Below are positions 5,408 through 13,858 of a DNA stretch of 52,365 bases, in pieces (the stretch's first letter is position 1; every line of letters starts with the position of its first letter). A model generated the notes under the pieces. That model did no database searches and was not told where the DNA came from. It saw only the letters and a list, made by a program, of their open reading frames with translations. The translations under genes and the position numbers were made by a program. This DNA is from Bacteroidales bacterium (lineage in GTDB: Bacteria; Bacteroidota; Bacteroidia; Bacteroidales; UBA932), in assembly GCA_017502125.1 (NCBI GenBank), contig JAFVVN010000044.1, positions 1 through 52,365 on the forward strand, in the 5' to 3' direction.

Positions 5408-5557
5408 ATGAAAATATCGGGAACGGGGAGTGTACTTCCCAAGAAGATTGTGACTAACGAAATGCTGGCTCAGTTTTTGGATACCAGCGACGAATGGATC
5501 AGGACCAGGACGGGAGTTTCGTGTCAGGAGCGGTGCTGTTTGAGTGGTAACCTTTAA
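5408..5557 (+). pseudogene. fabH: fabH remnant: N-terminal and C-terminal ends joined by a large internal deletion
   Basis: The 49-codon frame from 5408 begins [11 protein letters not shown], then [20 protein letters not shown] and TGV, an unmistakable N-terminus of 3-oxoacyl-ACP synthase III. Homology then stops. In another frame the following bases (about 5512-5550) encode [12 protein letters not shown] and a stop, which is how FabH proteins normally end. So about 280 internal codons, including the catalytic Cys, His and Asn, have been lost, and the two ends are out of frame. The N-terminal frame runs on to a stop at 5555-5557, 11 bases before fabK, so its translation could still be coupled to fabK. 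FabH normally starts fatty-acid chains from acetyl-CoA and malonyl-ACP; a functional copy must lie elsewhere or initiation differs. Confidence 0.8.
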
Positions 5558-5568
5558 ATTTGACTATT

Positions 5569-6513
5569 ATGATTAAAAGCAGAATATGTGAAATGCTCGG
5601 GATACAGTATCCCGTGTTTCAGGGAGGAATGGCATGGGTCGCTGACGCATCGCTTGCAGCAGCGGTTTCCAATGCTGGAGGTCTCGGTCTCATTTCCTCG
5701 ATCAATGCAGGAACCGAGGCAGTAAGGGAAGAAATCAGAAAATGCCGTGAACTGACAGACAAGCCTTTCGGCGTGAACATCATGCTTCAGGCTCCGAATG
5801 CCGGGGAGATCGCCTGGATGGTGGTTGAGGAAGGAGTGAAGATTCTCACGACCGGAGCAGGCTCGCCGGCTCAATATATGCCTATGTGGAAGGAGGCCGA
5901 TATCAGGGTGATTCCGGTTGTGGCTTCTGTGGCACTTGCCTTGAAGATGCAGGCTGCCGGAGCTGACGCTGTTGTGGCGGAAGGAGCTGAGTCCGGAGGA
6001 CATGTGGGAGAACTCCATACCATGCCTCTTGTGCCCCAGATCGTGGATGCTCTTGACATTCCTGTTGTAGCTGCAGGCGGTATATGCGACGGTCGCGGAG
6101 CTGCAGCAGCCTTCATGCTCGGGGCAGACGCCATTCAGGTGGGGACACGCTTCCTCTCTGCAGAAGAGTGCAATGTACACCCGGAATACAAGGAGAAGAT
6201 TCTCAAGGCTACCGATATTTCCACAATAGTGACGGGAAAGTCTCTCGGTCATCCTGTCCGCTCGCTCAAGACCCCATTTTCAAAGACTTTTGCACGTATG
6301 GAGGCCGATCCATCCACTGATAAGAATGATATCCTGGCGTTAGGAAGCGGTGCCCTCCGCAAGGCTGTCCAGGAAGGTGACAGGAACGGTACCTATATGG
6401 CCGGTGAGTGTGCCGGAATGGTGAAGAGGATCGAACCTGCCAAGGCGATAGTAGAGGATCTCATTCTCGGAGCAGAGAAGGTGATCAGGGAGACAGCGGC
6501 GAGAATAGCATAG
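5569..6513 (+). CDS. fabK: enoyl-ACP reductase II (FMN-dependent)
   Basis: A 314-residue TIM-barrel flavoprotein of the FabK / nitronate monooxygenase family. Seen: YPVFQGGMAWVADASLAAAVSNAGGLG at the start, the family's central AEGAESGGHVGE block near residue 145, and the FMN-phosphate loop AAGGICDGRGAAAAFMLGADAIQVGTRF around residues 180-205. FabK reduces the enoyl-ACP double bond in the last step of each elongation round, using NAD(P)H through FMN. The position at the head of a run of fab genes favours FabK over nitronate monooxygenase. The ATG at 5569 is preferred to a TTG nine bases earlier. It follows the fabH remnant and precedes fabF by 27 bases. Confidence 0.93.
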   Translation: MIKSRICEMLGIQYPVFQGGMAWVADASLAAAVSNAGGLGLISSINAGTEAVREEIRKCRELTDKPFGVNIMLQAPNAGEIAWMVVEEGVKILTTGAGSPAQYMPMWKEADIRVIPVVASVALALKMQAAGADAVVAEGAESGGHVGELHTMPLVPQIVDALDIPVVAAGGICDGRGAAAAFMLGADAIQVGTRFLSAEECNVHPEYKEKILKATDISTIVTGKSLGHPVRSLKTPFSKTFARMEADPSTDKNDILALGSGALRKAVQEGDRNGTYMAGECAGMVKRIEPAKAIVEDLILGAEKVIRETAARIA

Positions 6514-6540
6514 ATTTAACATACTTTATCTTGACTATAT

Positions 6541-7794
6541 ATGAACAGAAGAGTAGTTGTAACGGGAATGGGAGTCATAACTCCGGTAGGAAACGATGTC
6601 CGGACATATTGGAACAGCCTTCTTGACGGGGTTTGCGGAATAGATTTCGTGAAGGCTTTTCCCACTGACGACCTCCCTGTAAAGATTGCAGGTGAAGTGA
6701 AGGATTTCAATCCGGCGGATTATGGTATAGAGCCGGGTTTTGCAAGAAAACAGGACAAGTTCACTGTATATGCTGTAGCTGCGGCATGGCAGGCCGTGCA
6801 GCAGTCAGGTATAAGTTCGGCAGAGGATGGAAACATAGACCCGTTCAGACTCGGTGTGTATGTAGGTTCTGGAATCGGAGGCTTCACAACCATGGTCAGG
6901 GAGACGGAGAAGATTCTGACTGAAGGCCCCAAATGGGTGTCTCCGCTTTTCATCCCTACCATGATCGCTAACATAGCGGCAGGAAATATAGCGATCAGGA
7001 ACAATGCATGTGGACCTTGCCTTCCTGTCGTTACTGCCTGCGCAACCTCCACCCACGCTATCGGTGAGGCCTTCCGGGCCATCAAGTACGGCCATGCAGA
7101 TGCAATAATCACCGGTGGTTCAGAGGCTTCGGTCATTCCGATAGCCATTGCCGGATTCGCAAACGCCAAGGCTCTTTCCAGGGCCGAGGATCCGAAATAT
7201 GCATCACTGCCGTTCAACAGGAACAGGGGAGGATTCGTGATGGCGGAAGGGGCCGGCATGCTGGTGCTTGAGGAGTACGGGCATGCGAAGGCTCGCGGAG
7301 CTGAGATACTTGCGGAAGTCTGCGGATATGGCAACACCTGTGACGCCCACCATGTCACAGCTCCGAGACCTGACGGAAAGACCCAGGCTGCCGCTATCAG
7401 ATGTGCCCTTGAAGAGGCGGAATACACTTCGGATGATGTGCTATACATCAATGCACACGGAACAGGTACCGCACTGAACGATACTTCAGAAACCATGGCG
7501 TTCAAGCTCGCCTTGGGAGATGACGCAGCCAAGGCACACATCAGTTCTACAAAAGGCTCGACCGGTCATATGCTGGGAGCTGCCGGTGCTGTTGAAGCGA
7601 TAGCTTCTGTCCTTGCGCTGATGAACGGAACAGTGCCTCCTACGGCAAACCTCGACGAGGTGGATCCGGAATGTGATCTGGACTATACTCCATTGAAACC
7701 TGTCAAGGCCCGGCTTACGATAGCTATTTCCGACTCGCTCGGTTTTGGAGGACATAACGGATGTGTGGCATTCAGAAAGTATAATGACGAATAA
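6541..7794 (+). CDS. fabF: 3-oxoacyl-ACP synthase II
   Basis: A 417-residue condensing enzyme of the KAS I/II type. The catalytic triad is visible: Cys167 in VVTACATSTHAIGE, His near residue 309 in NAHGTGTALND, and His near residue 345 in KGSTGHMLGAAGA. FabF joins malonyl-ACP to the growing acyl-ACP with loss of CO2. The N-terminus MNRRVVVTGMGVITPVG is standard, so the start is secure. Its 3' end overlaps the likely start of the dehydratase gene, suggesting translational coupling. Confidence 0.96.
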   Translation: MNRRVVVTGMGVITPVGNDVRTYWNSLLDGVCGIDFVKAFPTDDLPVKIAGEVKDFNPADYGIEPGFARKQDKFTVYAVAAAWQAVQQSGISSAEDGNIDPFRLGVYVGSGIGGFTTMVRETEKILTEGPKWVSPLFIPTMIANIAAGNIAIRNNACGPCLPVVTACATSTHAIGEAFRAIKYGHADAIITGGSEASVIPIAIAGFANAKALSRAEDPKYASLPFNRNRGGFVMAEGAGMLVLEEYGHAKARGAEILAEVCGYGNTCDAHHVTAPRPDGKTQAAAIRCALEEAEYTSDDVLYINAHGTGTALNDTSETMAFKLALGDDAAKAHISSTKGSTGHMLGAAGAVEAIASVLALMNGTVPPTANLDEVDPECDLDYTPLKPVKARLTIAISDSLGFGGHNGCVAFRKYNDE

Positions 7795-8221
7795 AGAATC
7801 GATGAATAAGGAAGAACTCAAGGAATACCTTCCGCATAGGGAGCCGATGCTCCTTGTGGACAGGATGGATATAGACGAGGAAGGCATCTGTCATGCAGAA
7901 TACCGCATAAAGGAGGATGAAGTCTTCTGTCAGGGTCATTTCCCGGGCAATCCGATAGTTCCTGGCGTAATCCAGTGCGAGATAATGGCTCAGAGCTGCG
8001 CCCTTCTCGTAAAGGATGCGATAAAAGGGAAGATGACACTTTATACAGGGATCGACAAGGTCCGGTTCAAGCAGATTGTCAAGCCTGGAGACCTGTGCGA
8101 AGTCACATCCAGACTGAAAAGCAGAAGAGGGAACATCTTCCACTGTGAGTCAGTGCTGAAGGTCAACAATAATTTATGCTGCAAGGGCGAGCTGTCATTT
8201 GCCCTTGTGTCTGATGTTTAA
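7784..8221 (+). CDS. fabZ: 3-hydroxyacyl-ACP dehydratase, FabZ type
   Basis: A hot-dog-fold dehydratase of 145 residues. It has the FabZ start [17 protein letters not shown] and the active-site helix with [20 protein letters not shown], in which the His and the Glu of CEIMAQ are catalytic. It removes water from 3-hydroxyacyl-ACP to give trans-2-enoyl-ACP, the substrate of FabK. Two starts are possible: the ATG at 7784, overlapping the end of fabF by 11 bases, and the ATG at 7802, eight bases after fabF; I cannot decide between them. A TTG at 7745 would add residues not seen in the family. Confidence 0.9.
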
Positions 8222-8232
8222 ACAAATACGAT

Positions 8233-9792
8233 ATGACACAAAGCGAAAAGATAAAGGAACTGGTAATACGACGTGAATCAGCGCGTGCCGGTGGAGGACA
8301 GAAAAGGATCGATGCCCAGCATGCCAAGGGAAAGATGACGGCTCGTGAAAGGCTTGCCATGCTTCTGGATGAGGGCAGCTTTGAAGAGTTCGACATGTTC
8401 GTACAACATCGTTGTACCAACTTCGGAATGGATGGGAACAAATATGACGGAGATGGTGTTGTGACCGGAATGGGCACTATAGATGGGAGACTTGTATATG
8501 TTTATGCTCAAGACTTTACCGTCAATGGTGGCTCCATGTCCGAGACAATGGCTCAGAAGATATGCAAGGTCATGGATATGGCAGTCCGCAACGGAGCTCC
8601 ATTCATAGGAATCAATGATTCGGGTGGAGCCAGGATTCAGGAAGGAATCAACTCTCTTGCCGGGTTCGGGGAAATATTCGAGCGGAATATCCTTGCGTCA
8701 GGCGTTGTACCCCAGATATCTGGGATATTCGGTCCCTGCGCCGGAGGAGCTGTCTATTCTCCAGCTTTGACTGATTTCACAGTCATGATCAAGGACACCT
8801 CATATATGTTCCTGACAGGGCCTGGAGTGGTGAGGACAGTGACCGGAGAAGTGGTGACCCAGGAAGAACTGGGAGGAGCAAGCGTACACTCCACAAAAAG
8901 CGGAGTCGCCCATTTCGCATCAGAAAACGAACAGGAGGGTATACAGACCATCAAGGCACTGCTGAGTTTTCTTCCTTCCAACAATCGCGAAGAGGCACCG
9001 ATGGTGGCAACTTCCGATTCTCCCGGGAGATATGATGATTCACTCAATGAACTAATTCCAGACAATCCTACCAAGGCCTATGACATGTACAAGGTCATTG
9101 GAAGCATAGTTGATGACGGCCGTTTTCTCGAAGTTCATAAGAGCTGGGCAAGGAACATCATAATAGGTTTTGCTCACATGAACGGAAGGTCTGTGGGCAT
9201 AGTGGCAAACCAGCCTAAGGTACTCGCCGGCGTACTGGATATCAATGCCTCACGAAAGGCAGCCCGTTTTGTGCGTTTCTGTGATGCATTCAACATACCT
9301 CTTGTGACTCTGGTCGACGTGCCTGGTTTCCTTTGCGGAACACAGCAGGAATACGGTGGAATCATATCCCATGGGGCCAAACTCCTTTACGCTTATGGTG
9401 AATCCACGGTTCCTAAGGTGACCGTGACTCTCAGAAAATCATATGGAGGAGCGCATATCACAATGAGTTGCAAGCAGTTACGTGGCGATATCAACTACGC
9501 ATGGCCTTCAGCCAACATAGCTGTAATGGGGGCCGACGGTGCTGTGGAGATACTCTATTCAAAGGAGATAAAAGCCATTGAGGATCCTGAAGAAAGACTC
9601 AAGGCTGCAGAAGAAAAGAAGAAGGAATATAACGAGCTGTTCTGTAATCCATACAACGCGGCAAGCTTCGGATATATAGATGACATCATCGAGCCTCGTA
9701 ATACCCGATTCCGTGTGATACGTGCCCTTGAGCAGCTTACAGGGAAGAAACAGTCAAACCCATGGAAGAAACATGACAATCTTCCTTTATAA
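8233..9792 (+). CDS. acyl-CoA carboxyltransferase (12S / MmdA / PccB-type)
   Basis: A 519-residue biotin-dependent carboxyltransferase with both halves of the crotonase-like fold. Seen: [12 protein letters not shown] (residues 127-138) and [11 protein letters not shown] (167-177), the first oxyanion hole, and [15 protein letters not shown] with [11 protein letters not shown] (363-411) in the second half. It moves a carboxyl group between carboxybiotin and an acyl-CoA. The residue corresponding to Asp422 of Streptomyces PccB is Ile409, as in acetyl-CoA-preferring AccB, which points to malonyl-CoA as product. The family also includes Na+-pumping methylmalonyl-CoA decarboxylase alpha subunits and the 12S subunit of propionibacterial transcarboxylase. 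It begins 11 bases after fabZ inside the fab operon, and no biotin carboxylase accompanies it. Confidence 0.93.
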
Positions 9793-9803
9793 CAAGACAG
9801 GCA

Positions 9804-9911
9804 ATGGATAATATGACAGCCGCAGTAATTGCGCTTGCGATACGCCAATATATTGACGCAAAGTATCACGACAAGGAAAGCTACATCATCACAATCAAGA
9901 GAAAGCAGTAA
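9804..9911 (+). CDS. 35-residue soluble OadG/MmdD-tail-like small subunit
   Basis: A short frame between carboxyltransferase and biotin carrier genes: ATG at 9804, stop TAA at 9909-9911 whose last A is the first base of the next ATG (TAATG). The product reads MDNMTAAVIALAIRQYIDAK and then a basic strand YIITIKRK. This resembles the segment found near the C-terminus of many OadG/MmdD-type subunits, of the form AVIxAAIxxY followed by FxVRSIRR, but lacks their membrane helix. In those enzymes the segment helps hold carboxyltransferase and carrier subunits together; I infer the same scaffold role here in a cytosolic complex. Start could also be the ATG at 9813. Its position and tight coupling argue that it is real. 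Confidence 0.65.
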   Translation: MDNMTAAVIALAIRQYIDAKYHDKESYIITIKRKQ

Positions 9912-10345
9912 TGAATCTGAAGAAATATATAATAAACGGCATCGAATACAATGTCTCTGTGAATTCGGTCACTGATGACAAGGCAGAGGTCACTGTGAAT
10001 GGAGTGACTTATCAGGTGAATATAGAGAACAGCAGAGAAGCCGTCCCGGTACATGAATCAGACACGGAATCATTTGAGCATCAGTCAGTCTGCGAGGGAG
10101 TTTCTCAGGTGGCGCCTTCTATGGCAGGACCAGGAAAATCCGTAAGGTCACCCCTTCCTGGTGTCGTTGTGGGCATAAAGGTCAAAGTCGGAGACTCTGT
10201 AAAGGTCGGGCAGACCGTTGCGGTACTTGAAGCAATGAAGATGGAGAATGAGATCCAGTCAGAATATGACGGGGTCGTGACTTCAATAAATGTATCTGAG
10301 GGAGATTCCATTCTTGAAGGGGCTCCTATGGTAGTAATCGGATAG
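9911..10345 (+). CDS. biotin carboxyl carrier protein (1.3S / MmdC type)
   Basis: A 144-residue biotin carrier. The C-terminal domain (about residues 76-144) contains the biotinylation motif EAMKMEN with its target Lys near residue 114, flanked by PLPGVVVGIKVKVGD and YDGVVTSINVSEGD, the usual biotinyl fold. The N-terminal part has the pattern YIINGIEYNVSV, as in MmdC, OadA tails and the 1.3S transcarboxylase subunit, rather than the Ala/Pro-rich start of AccB. It shuttles carboxybiotin between the two carboxyltransferases encoded in the operon. Its start overlaps the stop of the small subunit by one base, and fabD starts nine bases after its stop. Confidence 0.95.
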   Translation: MNLKKYIINGIEYNVSVNSVTDDKAEVTVNGVTYQVNIENSREAVPVHESDTESFEHQSVCEGVSQVAPSMAGPGKSVRSPLPGVVVGIKVKVGDSVKVGQTVAVLEAMKMENEIQSEYDGVVTSINVSEGDSILEGAPMVVIG

Positions 10346-10354
10346 TCAATGATC

Positions 10355-11230
10355 ATGAATGCTTATGTATTTCCAGGACAGGGAGCTCAGTTCCCTGGAA
10401 TGGCAAGGGAATTATATGAAAACAGCACTAAGGCACGTGAACTGTTCGGACGTGCCAATGCGATTCTTGGCTTCAATATAACTGACATCATGTTCAATGG
10501 AAGTGCGGAGGATCTCAAGCAGACAAAGGTGACGCAGCCGGCTATATTTCTGCACTCGGTGATACTTGCGATGTGCAGTCAGGATTTCAATCCGGACATG
10601 GTTGCGGGGCACTCTCTGGGCGAATTTTCTGCACTGACAGCTGCGGGAGCCCTGGATTTTGAAGACGGACTCCGCCTGGTTGCGATTCGTGCCGGAGCCA
10701 TGCAGAAAGCATGCGAATCCACTCCGGGAACCATGGCTGCGGTCATTGGACTCCCGGCACAGGCTGTAGAATCCATATGCTCTGAAACAGTGGGCACTGT
10801 AGTACCGGCAAACTATAACTGCGATGGACAGATTGTGATATCAGGCACTGCCGCAGCGGTTGCCGAAGCGTCTGACCGGATGAAGGAAGCAGGTGCAAAG
10901 AGGATAGTCATGCTTCCGGTAGGAGGCGCATTCCATTCACCGTTGATGAAGCAGGCGGAGGCAGAACTGGCCGAAGGAATAAGAAGCGTTCATTTCGACA
11001 GGCCAATATGTCCGGTCTATCAGAATGTAAATGCCATGCCAGTCACAGATCCTGAAGAAATCAGGAAATATCTTCTTGAACAGCTCACCTCACCGGTAAG
11101 ATGGACGCAGACAGTCAGGAATATGGCAGCAGATGGGGCAGGGCGGTTCATTGAGTCAGGCCCCGGCAAGGTCCTGCAGGGACTGGTGTCAAAAATCCTT
11201 GGAGACAACGTGATCGTAGGACATCTTTAA
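10355..11230 (+). CDS. fabD: malonyl-CoA:ACP transacylase
   Basis: A 291-residue acyltransferase starting MNAYVFPGQGAQFPGMAREL, the standard FabD N-terminus. The nucleophilic Ser is in GHSLGEFSA (near residue 88) and the catalytic His in GGAFHSPLM (near residue 198). It moves malonyl groups from CoA to ACP, so it takes the product proposed for the neighbouring carboxyltransferase. An ATG six bases upstream (10349) is also possible; I prefer 10355 by family length. It directly follows the biotin carrier gene, which supports a joint role in malonyl supply. Confidence 0.95.
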   Translation: MNAYVFPGQGAQFPGMARELYENSTKARELFGRANAILGFNITDIMFNGSAEDLKQTKVTQPAIFLHSVILAMCSQDFNPDMVAGHSLGEFSALTAAGALDFEDGLRLVAIRAGAMQKACESTPGTMAAVIGLPAQAVESICSETVGTVVPANYNCDGQIVISGTAAAVAEASDRMKEAGAKRIVMLPVGGAFHSPLMKQAEAELAEGIRSVHFDRPICPVYQNVNAMPVTDPEEIRKYLLEQLTSPVRWTQTVRNMAADGAGRFIESGPGKVLQGLVSKILGDNVIVGHL

Positions 11231-11268
11231 GATAATCAAAACGGTAAAAACTGAAAATTTAGAATCTT

Positions 11269-11997
11269 ATGAAATATGCTTTGGTAACCGGCGGAAGCCG
11301 CGGAATCGGTAGAAATATCTGTTTCAGACTCGCACAGGAGGGATATAATGTAATCATAAACTATGTCTCTAATGAGCAGGAGGCACTCAAGACTCTTGAA
11401 GAGGTCAGACGGCTTGGAAGCGACGGAGAACTCCTGAAATTCAATGTGGCTGACAATCAGGAATGCGTGGCAGCAATTACCGGTTGGGAAGAAAGTCATC
11501 CGGGAGAATATATCGAAGTTCTGGTGAATAACGCCGGCATAAGAAGGGACAACCTCCTTCTCAGAATGAGCAGTCAGGACTGGAATGCTGTCATCGGCAC
11601 TCACCTCGGAGGCTTTTACAATGTGACGAAGGTGGTGATCAGACAGATGCTCAGCAAGCGCAAAGGGCGTATCATAAGCATGGCATCACTGTCAGGTCTG
11701 AAGGGTGTGCCAGGACAGGCAAACTATTCCGCAGCTAAAGGCGGACTCATAGCGGCAACCCGGTCACTTGCCAATGAAGTCGGACGCAAGGGGATAACAG
11801 TCAATGCAGTAGCTCCAGGATTCATCCGGACAGATATGACAGAAGACCTTAATGAGGCAGAACTCAAGAAGAGCATTCCGCTCAATCGGTTCGGAGAACC
11901 TGAAGAAGTGGCGGATCTGGTGGCATTCCTGGCATCCGACAAGGCTGCCTACATAACGGGAGAATGTATCTCCATCAATGGTGGACTATACATGTAA
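11269..11997 (+). CDS. fabG: 3-oxoacyl-ACP reductase
   Basis: A 242-residue short-chain dehydrogenase. Seen: the cofactor loop TGGSRGIGRN (residues 6-15), NNAGI near residue 86, the catalytic Ser near residue 138 in SMASLSG, and Tyr-x-x-x-Lys in NYSAAKGG near residue 151, with PGFIRTDMT after it. FabG reduces 3-oxoacyl-ACP to 3-hydroxyacyl-ACP with NADPH. The FabG reading among many SDR enzymes rests on the neighbours. There are 38 bases between fabD and this gene. The next gene starts 11 bases after its stop, with AAGGGG between them as a good ribosome-binding site. Confidence 0.93.
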   Translation: MKYALVTGGSRGIGRNICFRLAQEGYNVIINYVSNEQEALKTLEEVRRLGSDGELLKFNVADNQECVAAITGWEESHPGEYIEVLVNNAGIRRDNLLLRMSSQDWNAVIGTHLGGFYNVTKVVIRQMLSKRKGRIISMASLSGLKGVPGQANYSAAKGGLIAATRSLANEVGRKGITVNAVAPGFIRTDMTEDLNEAELKKSIPLNRFGEPEEVADLVAFLASDKAAYITGECISINGGLYM

Positions 11998-12008
11998 GGG
12001 GATTGCTG

Positions 12009-13796
12009 ATGAAAAAGGAAATCAAATTCTCCCTGGTATACAGGGATATGTGGCAGTCGTCCGGCAAATACGTCCCGACTGTCTCACAATTGAAGGAGGT
12101 TGCTCCTGCCATCATCGATATGGGATGCTTCGACCGTGTCGAGACAAACGGAGGTGCATTCGAACAGGTCAATCTGCTCTTCGGCGAGAACCCTAACAAG
12201 GCAGTCCGGGAATGGACGGCACCATTCAACAGGGCCGGGATCGGGACACACATGCTCGAACGTGGTCTCAATGGATTGAGAATGAATCCCGTACCGGCAG
12301 ATGTGAGGGAGTTGATGTTCAAGGTAAAGAAGGCTCAGGGAACTGATATTTCGCGTTCTTTCTGCGGTCTGAACGATCATCGCAACCTGCAGCTCAGTGT
12401 GCAATATGCAAAACAGGCGGGTATGATATCCCAGGTGGCCCTGGCCATTACTCACTCACCGGTACACACTGTGGACTACTATCTGGGAATAGTTGACAAG
12501 GTGGTAGGATACGGTTGTGATGAGATTTGCCTCAAGGATATGGCTGGCATCGGAAGACCGACGTTTCTTGCTGAGCTCACTGCAGGCATCAAGAGGAAAT
12601 ATCCGCAGCTGACGATACAGTATCACGGTCATTGCGGCCCGGGGTTTTCACCTGCATCAATGCTTGAGGTGGCGCGTGCAGGGGCCGATTATCTTGATGT
12701 GGCTGTCGAGCCACTGTCATGGGGTAAGGTTCATCCAGACGTGATAACAGTCCGTGAAATGCTTAAGGCTGACGGATTTCAGGTAAAGGACTTGAATATT
12801 GATGCATATATGGAAGTCAGAAGCCTGACTCAAAAATATATAGATGAGTTCCTTGGCTATTGGATAGATTCCAACAACTCACACATGAGTTCTCTTCTTG
12901 TCGGATGCGGCCTTCCAGGCGGCATGATGGGCTCAATGATGGCTGACCTGAAAGGATTCCACGGCGCGATCAATGCTTCGCTCCGTTCACAAGGCAGGGA
13001 AGAGCTGTCTCTCGACAGACTTATGGTGATGCTTTTCCAGGAAGTCGAATATGTATGGCCTCGACTTGGATATCCTCCGCTCGTGACCCCATTCAGCCAG
13101 TACGTGAAGAATACTGCGTTGATGAATCTCATGAATATTCTCAAGGGACAGCCTCGATGGAGCACAATTGACAAGGACACATGGAACATGATTCTGGGGC
13201 GGATGGGAGAATTGCCTGGTCGGCTTGATCCGGAGATCGTCGCCCTGGCCAGGCAGAAAGGCCTTGAATTCTACACTGGAAACCCTCAGGACGCATTCCC
13301 TGACGAACTCGACAGGTTCCGCCAGATCATGCAGGAAGAAGGATGGCACTGCGGGCAGGATGATGAGGAACTGTTTGAGCTCGCAATGCATGAAAGACAA
13401 TACAGGGACTATAGGAGCGGAATCGCCAAGGATCGCTTCAACAAGGAGCTGTCTGAAGCCAAGGCAAAATCCGGAGCGCCGATAGTCATAACCAGACCTG
13501 TCACAGAACTGCCGAAGATAAATGTTGAAAAGGTCCTGGAAAAATATCCGGATGCTATTCCTGTTCAGGCCCCAGCCAAGGGGCAGATGCTCTGGAACAT
13601 CGATATGGACGGAGTATCATCGGCCCCTGTTATCGGGGCAGCTGTCACGGAAGGGGAGTCTCTCGGCTACGTCCAGACATACTATGGGATGGAAGAGATA
13701 AGGTCCCTCTCTGACGGTCTTATCGTAGCGGCCTGCGTGAAACAAGGCGAATCAGTCGTAAAAGGTGAAATAATCGCCTTCGTACTGAAGAAATGA
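12009..13796 (+). CDS. oxaloacetate/pyruvate carboxyltransferase (5S / OadA / PycB-type)
   Basis: A 595-residue TIM-barrel carboxyltransferase. The active site is complete: Asp13 in YRDMWQSS, the Lys176 that is carbamylated in this family (CLKDMAGI), and His206/His208 in YHGHCGPG, all ligands or neighbours of the metal. It exchanges a carboxyl group between oxaloacetate/pyruvate and biotin. The C-terminal ~75 residues form a biotinyl-like domain, but the EAMKM motif is replaced by QTYYGMEEI, so it cannot be biotinylated and must use the separate carrier encoded at 9911. The ATG at 12009 follows AAGGGG; an upstream start at 11964 would overlap fabG and add unrelated residues. A strong terminator follows, marking the operon end. 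Confidence 0.9.
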   Translation: MKKEIKFSLVYRDMWQSSGKYVPTVSQLKEVAPAIIDMGCFDRVETNGGAFEQVNLLFGENPNKAVREWTAPFNRAGIGTHMLERGLNGLRMNPVPADVRELMFKVKKAQGTDISRSFCGLNDHRNLQLSVQYAKQAGMISQVALAITHSPVHTVDYYLGIVDKVVGYGCDEICLKDMAGIGRPTFLAELTAGIKRKYPQLTIQYHGHCGPGFSPASMLEVARAGADYLDVAVEPLSWGKVHPDVITVREMLKADGFQVKDLNIDAYMEVRSLTQKYIDEFLGYWIDSNNSHMSSLLVGCGLPGGMMGSMMADLKGFHGAINASLRSQGREELSLDRLMVMLFQEVEYVWPRLGYPPLVTPFSQYVKNTALMNLMNILKGQPRWSTIDKDTWNMILGRMGELPGRLDPEIVALARQKGLEFYTGNPQDAFPDELDRFRQIMQEEGWHCGQDDEELFELAMHERQYRDYRSGIAKDRFNKELSEAKAKSGAPIVITRPVTELPKINVEKVLEKYPDAIPVQAPAKGQMLWNIDMDGVSSAPVIGAAVTEGESLGYVQTYYGMEEIRSLSDGLIVAACVKQGESVVKGEIIAFVLKK

Positions 13797-13814: not shown

Positions 13815-13858
13815 CAAGAGCCGGCCAAAAGTGATTTAGCCGGCTCTTGATTGTTTTT
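13815..13858 (+). terminator. rho-independent terminator of the fab operon
   Basis: A perfect 11-bp GC-rich stem, CAAGAGCCGGC (13815-13825) and GCCGGCTCTTG (13839-13849), with a 13-base loop and a T-rich tail (TTGTTTTT, 13851-13858). Confidence 0.92.

Follow-up and report, generated by a model that had tools for sequence, protein, structure and literature searches.

The 52,365-nucleotide stretch analyzed here (the window) is a whole contig (G000:C11) from the assembly of a Bacteroidales bacterium (2.34 Mb, 78% complete). It carries an operon for type II fatty acid synthesis that also encodes a 12S/MmdA-type coenzyme A (CoA) carboxyltransferase, a 1.3S-type biotin carboxyl carrier, and a 5S/OadA-type oxaloacetate (pyruvate) carboxyltransferase. 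These proteins probably form a soluble, biotin-dependent oxaloacetate:acetyl-CoA transcarboxylase that supplies malonyl-CoA to fatty acid synthesis. The 5S protein would take a carboxyl group from oxaloacetate, leaving pyruvate, and load it on the biotin of the separate carrier, and 12S would pass it from carboxybiotin to acetyl-CoA, giving malonyl-CoA. FabD would then move the malonyl group to the acyl carrier protein (ACP). The carboxyl transfer would use no ATP and would not need a biotin carboxylase. A peptide of 35 residues homologous to the tail of OadG, and perhaps also the biotin-less end of 5S, may hold the parts together. An earlier note on this DNA had proposed the same reaction, and genome searches have since lent it support (no biotin carboxylase, no methylmalonyl-CoA mutase, Ile409 in 12S, BirA, and remnant OadG tails); from these we infer the reaction, its direction, and the use of acetyl-CoA.

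The 5S protein (12009 to 13796, + strand) had as its best solved relatives the transcarboxylase 5S chains (1rqb, E value 2e-37), followed by the oxaloacetate decarboxylase alpha subunit (2nx9). Residues D13, K176, H206, and H208, which we take to align with the metal ligands, were invariant in 24 of 24 sequences. The C terminus of 5S is a biotinyl-like stretch without the biotin lysine, and no MKM biotin motif was found in 117 of 121 5S rows (from overlapping loci, some possibly truncated). Such a 5S therefore requires a carrier in trans. The remaining four rows, more distant, showed a genuine fused carrier. The 12S protein (8233 to 9792, + strand) matched PF01039 (658.9 bits) and TIGR01117 (790.6 bits, below the cut-off of 998.8), and its best relative in the PDB was PccB (3n6r). 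The carrier (9911 to 10345, + strand) combines a PF00364 match (E value 2.4e-19) with an EAMKM motif. The search thus bears out what the earlier note had recognized: all the subunit types of the EC 2.1.3.1 transcarboxylase (12S, carrier, and 5S), the EAMKM motif, and an intact metal site.

In other Bacteroidales genomes (loci L161, L162, L166, and L168), this 5S and a genuine carrier (EAMKM or DAMKM) form one fusion protein of about 725 amino acids. In more distant Bacteroidota (L060, L072, and L080), 5S and fabD share a strand, 5S being upstream and separated from fabD by a single gene of about 230 to 250 codons.

Biotin carboxylase and the genome-wide inventory

The genus set comprised 61 genomes, of which 25 were of high quality (completeness of 90% or more, contamination of 5% or less). 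Biotin carboxylase, searched with a single profile (PF02785), had no match in the operon or in the 78%-complete genome of the window (G000), nor in any of the 25 high-quality genomes. Across the genus it was found once (1/61), in G012, where the gene lies beside a second 12S. The same profile matched 13 of 14 known genomes used as a positive control. FabD was found in 51 of the 61 genomes (49 above the cut-off), 12S in 60, and 5S in 59; the corresponding numbers among the high-quality genomes were 24, 25, and 25. Four of the genomes with 5S (G006, G031, G035, and G059) had only a second type, with about 54% identity. The conservation of FabD, 12S, and 5S without biotin carboxylase implies that malonyl-CoA is used and that acetyl-CoA carboxylase (ACC) as known cannot operate. 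The genus makes malonyl-ACP and yet seems to have no enzyme of the kind that usually charges biotin. The absence of biotin carboxylase, which the earlier note had read from the operon, thus extends to the genome and, G012 excepted, to the genus. That note had also tied its argument to the operon; the operon is real, but the biochemical case applies to the whole genus.

No ATP-dependent biotin carboxylase having been found in G000 or the genus (beyond G012), the system does not correspond to ACC (EC 6.4.1.2). AccA and AccD were sought only as relatives of 12S, not by profiles of their own, and G000 gave a single 12S-type match. The biotin ligase BirA is present in the window's genome (TIGR00121, above the curated cut-off), and PF03099, a biotin ligase family that also covers lipoate enzymes, was found in 60 of the 61 genus genomes.

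The analysis of 247 Bacteroidales genomes (246 at least 90% complete, plus that of the window) revealed biotin carboxylase in 156, FabD in 241 (235 above the cut-off), and a PYC_OADA-type protein in 143. Among the 91 genomes without biotin carboxylase, 87 had FabD, 74 had a PYC_OADA-type protein, and 39 had one close to the 5S of the window. PYC_OADA-type proteins were more frequent in the genomes without biotin carboxylase than in those with it (74/91 versus 69/156; Fisher test, P = 7e-9, uncorrected for kinship). In 17 genomes with FabD, neither biotin carboxylase nor a 5S/OadA-type protein was found; G132, G221, and G295, which were sampled from a single family, belong to these.

Substrate choice and competing explanations

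Residue 409 of 12S, at a position that influences the choice of acyl-CoA, was isoleucine in all 42 rows of the alignment (from about 30 genomes with overlapping loci, rows not reaching the position being dropped). The aligned position is aspartate in one propionyl-CoA carboxylase chain (6ybp) and isoleucine in its sister chains. A change from aspartate to isoleucine at the equivalent position is described as raising acetyl-CoA use in the Streptomyces and Thermobifida enzymes (PMC7835884).

It is improbable that the complex is a methylmalonyl-CoA:pyruvate transcarboxylase of the classical kind, serving propionate/succinate metabolism and lying beside the fab genes without a role in their pathway. 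In its favor, 12S is closest to the MmdA and PccB families and 5S to the Propionibacterium subunit. However, methylmalonyl-CoA mutase (PF01642) was found in none of the 61 genus genomes, while the control matched 8 of 14 genomes, including a Bacteroides, so that a propionate-type transcarboxylase would be without a partner. Moreover, 12S has isoleucine instead of the aspartate that PMC7835884 gives as typical of propionyl-CoA enzymes; the genes cluster with fabD; and the searches, which did not extend to malonate routes, revealed no further source of malonyl-CoA. A classical propionate role is thus unlikely. The operon shares with EC 2.1.3.1 the lack of a biotin carboxylase and of a membrane decarboxylase subunit (in the operon, the 78%-complete assembly, and relatives), but given the lack of mutase we do not file it under that number.

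An alternative of about the same low probability is a transcarboxylase that uses another acceptor, runs in reverse (oxaloacetate from surplus malonyl-CoA), acts on another acyl-CoA, or serves a specialized product. Transcarboxylase-type reactions are reversible, the FabG-like protein of the operon scores best with FlxB, and the acceptor is a predicted one. Yet this would leave FabD without a known source of malonyl-CoA, FabD has one match only in the assembly, and both the operon and Ile409 point to acetyl-CoA.

Slightly more doubtful is the reading that the genes belong to an ordinary acetyl-CoA or acyl-CoA carboxylase and that its biotin carboxylase either fell outside the assembly or has diverged beyond the reach of the search. 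The incompleteness of the assembly and the biotin carboxylase beside a second 12S in G012 would fit it. Against it stand the 0/25 result in high-quality genomes with a control of 13/14, and the retained 5S, which it leaves unexplained.

Several observations weigh against the proposed oxaloacetate:acetyl-CoA transcarboxylase or limit its reach. The window's assembly is 78% complete, so most of the support for the absences comes from relatives, and the search for biotin carboxylase used a single profile. The residue equivalent to Ile409 is valine in the PccB chain 3n6r, which makes isoleucine permissive rather than a proof. Both 12S and 5S were found in 58 genus genomes, but they share a contig in G000 and G032 only, and the operon link between the two consequently rests on these two genomes and on locus L023. 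The FabG-like protein scores highest against FlxB (flexirubin), which leaves some room for a specialized product. At the level of the order, 17 of the 91 genomes in which biotin carboxylase was not found had no match to a 5S-type protein either, yet have FabD; these must have another source of malonyl-CoA, or genes were missed. Conversely, a 5S-type protein occurs in 69 of the 156 genomes with biotin carboxylase and is therefore not reserved for this role. Both groups contradict a simple rule.

The OadG tail and the membrane pump

Between 12S and the carrier lies a ninth gene, of 35 codons (9804 to 9911, + strand), which was missing from the eight listed in the earlier note. Its stop codon overlaps the start of the carrier gene (TAATG). 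In comparison with its counterpart in L023, differences number 3, 4, and 21 at the three codon positions and 29 of 34 residues are kept, so the gene looks coding and under protein-level constraint. No NCBIfam model matched the 35-residue product, and a homolog of 72 residues matched neither a Pfam nor an NCBIfam model. The 35-residue product is homologous to the soluble C-terminal tail of OadG/MmdD, typically HDxESxxITI (with variants in G014, G036, G037, and G057), and has no membrane anchor.

Most relatives retain the membrane pump: of the 60 genus genomes that carry 12S, 48 have OadB at most 6 kb away from it. The order is 12S-OadG-carrier-OadB in the contexts of G007, G016, and G044; in that of G039, a competing reading frame displaced the call of the carrier. 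OadB had no match in G000, nor in G029, G032, G041, G050, G052, and G053, which are 91 to 98% complete. The 12S gene is retained in G029, G041, G050, G052, and G053 although OadB was not found.

DNA for the tail analysis came from half of the genus genomes that carry 12S (30 of 60), plus L023 (locus only). At the 12S locus or operon, a tail was located in 31 genomes, of which G055 was then dropped as a broken contig. Twelve genomes were without linked OadB, and G005, G015, and G018 were left out of the analysis. G022 was counted as without 12S-linked OadB, since its OadB adjoins a second 5S-type gene. With linked OadB, the reading frame of the tail includes a membrane segment in all 21 cases (peak 19-residue hydropathy, 2.43 to 3.06); without it, the tail is kept and the membrane segment is gone in 9 of 9 loci (1.02 to 1.36), these counts coming from related rows and not being independent. 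The highest 19-residue value of the window's tail is 1.09. Tails without anchor are 34 to 35 residues long in L023 and the window, 57 in G022, and 72 to 74 in five genomes. In G032, the tail is fused to the end of 5S, where it replaces the biotinyl-like stretch (L128, 6290 to 7924, - strand); this fusion connects 5S with the machinery of 12S and carrier by a line of evidence separate from the operon.

In the 12S tree (31 rows, midpoint root, with G022 labeled OadB), G029, G041, G050, G052, and G053 group together (94/92). The window and L023 form another group (98/91) with the pump-bearing G056 as sister (95/89), and G032 stands apart. Taken with G022, the tree suggests that the pump may have been lost three or four separate times, and the remnant tails suggest that what was discarded was a membrane pump. 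The ancestor would have had the same 12S and carrier together with a Na+-pumping OadB and an OadG anchor; pump and anchor would have been lost and the transfer kept.

A Na+-pumping decarboxylase that acts on malonyl-CoA, methylmalonyl-CoA, or oxaloacetate and whose OadB gene lies at another site, as the linked OadB of most relatives might suggest, is the least probable explanation, since no OadB was found in the operon or in G000 (the operon part having been seen in the earlier note), the operon has only the tail in place of an anchored OadG/MmdD, the six relatives above have no OadB match either, and the anchor is gone in all nine loci examined without linked OadB.

Whether the oxaloacetate:acetyl-CoA transcarboxylase can be extended further is evenly balanced in our judgment. 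The whole genus, and perhaps much of Bacteroidales, would make fatty acids without ACC through a shared carboxybiotin hub. The carrier of pump-bearing relatives would serve 5S for loading, 12S for malonyl-CoA, and OadB for Na+ export, and several lineages would have dropped the pump and kept the OadG tail as a free microsubunit or a 5S fusion. The seemingly ACC-free synthesis across the genus and the discarded pump both lie beyond what can be read in the window.

Other arrangements of OadG were observed. In G056 (L085), the OadG membrane segment and the carrier are fused in a protein of about 175 amino acids, with a weak tail match. Some relatives have an OadG of about 305 amino acids (L129, 10229 to 11158; L133, 5443 to 6357); that of L129 matches the Lamin Tail Domain before the membrane segment with 31.1 bits, below the Pfam cut-off of 34.3. 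In L098 (G055), the OadG tail is interrupted and the contig continues with unrelated coding sequence, through either a chimeric assembly or an insertion.

Related systems, operon layout, and gene order

The transcarboxylase of Propionibacterium (EC 2.1.3.1) accepts acetyl-CoA, and its engineered use for malonyl-CoA exists. The window's system resembles it in the 12S, 1.3S, and 5S types, the lack of biotin carboxylase, and the intact 5S metal site. It differs in a 5S that is only remotely similar (E value 2e-37) and has an added biotin-less C-terminal stretch, in the small OadG-tail subunit, in the link to fatty acid synthesis, and in a genus where the mutase was not found. With MmdABCD and OadABG it shares homologous 12S, carrier, and OadG tail, as in the 12S-OadG-carrier-OadB operons of relatives, but it lacks OadB and the membrane part of OadG and has 5S added to the operon. 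With AccABCD and the actinobacterial acyl-CoA carboxylase it has in common the presumed product malonyl-CoA, a biotin carrier, and a CoA carboxyltransferase; it has no ATP-dependent biotin carboxylase, and the carboxyl donor is presumably oxaloacetate. By analogy with what PMC7835884 describes, the tail might be comparable in role to the small noncatalytic epsilon subunit of the actinobacterial carboxylase, and the biotin-less end of 5S may recall the BADC subunits.

The nearest precedent found is a fused biotin protein of Giardia, which is described as joining ACC and pyruvate carboxylase to a biotin carrier domain (PMC8700996) and which the title of Jordan et al. (2003) terms a transcarboxylase; it is a single eukaryotic protein and not a bacterial fab operon. 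Lombard and Moreira (2011) report ACC-related biotin carboxylase in almost all bacterial groups and mark it for the 20 Bacteroidetes that they covered; divergent sequences resembling transcarboxylases were left out of their consideration (PMC3199775). In what is accessible of PMC9960984, methylmalonyl-CoA carboxyltransferase appears among the gene abbreviations only. Judged by titles and the start of abstracts, no natural fatty acid operon with a transcarboxylase is described in the open-access literature among the matches listed, in line with the earlier note, whose author knew of none.

If the proposed reaction takes place, many gut and rumen Bacteroidales bypass ACC and save one ATP per malonyl-CoA. 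To our knowledge, ACC is treated as a near-universal committed step of bacterial fatty acid synthesis, and it is regarded as a drug target; inhibitors of biotin carboxylase should then not affect the malonyl-CoA step in these bacteria. Oxaloacetate usually comes from phosphoenolpyruvate carboxykinase in this group, and with this source the route would be one ATP cheaper per malonyl-CoA than ACC. Membrane synthesis would be tied to the oxaloacetate pool of fermentation. A membrane ion pump would have become a soluble biosynthetic enzyme by loss of the pump, with a tail of about 30 residues kept, and biotechnology would gain a natural ATP-free enzyme for malonyl-CoA.

The operon reads, on the + strand, fabK, fabF, fabZ, 12S, the 35-codon gene, the biotin carrier, fabD, the fabG-like gene, 5S, and a terminator. 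The enoyl-ACP reductase II gene fabK (5560 to 6513) starts at TTG, with an alternative ATG at 5569 possible; its product matches PF03060 and TIGR03151 (444.3 bits), 8.8 bits short of the equivalog cut-off of 453.1. The beta-ketoacyl-ACP synthase II gene fabF follows (6541 to 7794; TIGR03150, 552.8 bits, above the cut-off). The 3-hydroxyacyl-ACP dehydratase gene fabZ (7802 to 8221), whose ATG start was set by the G032 ortholog, passes one of two models (NF000582, 118.2 bits, cut-off 113; TIGR01750, 104.8 bits, below 155.15). Downstream of the carrier are fabD, for malonyl-CoA:ACP transacylase (10349 to 11230; TIGR00128, 322.6 bits, above the cut-off), and a FabG-like short-chain reductase gene (11269 to 11997), whose best NCBIfam model is NF053542 (FlxB; 391.7 bits, cut-off 340). 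The latter protein also exceeds two FabG cut-offs (NF004200, 288.4/273; NF009466, 260.7/222) and just misses TIGR01830 (296.2/297.75). An alternative upstream start of 5S at 11964 would overlap fabG. With FabD, FabF, and FabZ above a curated cut-off and both enoyl and ketoacyl reductases, the set is that of type II fatty acid synthesis, and the single FabD match in G000 argues that the operon is the primary fatty acid system.

Intergenic gaps are 3 to 38 bases, except for the 118 bases between 12S and the carrier that hold the 35-codon gene. A hairpin followed by a T run (about 13815 to 13858, + strand; -22 kcal/mol with flanks) precedes a convergent gene. It was not among the results of a generic terminator scan of the window, probably because its loop exceeds the length permitted in that scan. 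Strand, spacing, and terminator thus do tie together the eight genes named in the earlier note.

Four of 80 related loci belong to Candidatus Cryptobacteroides, and the others are mostly labeled Bacteroidales, Bacteroidia, or Bacteroidetes. The gene order check suggested by the earlier note did retrieve similar clusters, fabH-K-F-Z-12S-carrier-D-5S without fabG in G032 and F-12S-carrier-D-5S without fabZ and fabG in L023 (whose contig begins near fabF), but fab clustering is rare, being found in three genomes. In 81 5S neighborhoods, 12S and carrier were nearby in L023 only. Since 12S and 5S share a contig only in G000 and G032 among the 58 genus genomes with both, the clustering counts as local, and the argument rests chiefly on whole genomes.

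Within the cluster, identity between the window and G032 is uneven. FabK, FabF, and FabZ (the latter taken three codons late) are 95%, 97%, and 91% identical, with 66, 76, and 61% identity at third codon positions, while 12S, carrier, FabD, and 5S are 87%, 58%, 70%, and 81% identical, with 38 to 48% at third positions. The fabK-fabF-fabZ block (5560 to 8221 in the window, compared with L128) thus seems to have been recently exchanged.

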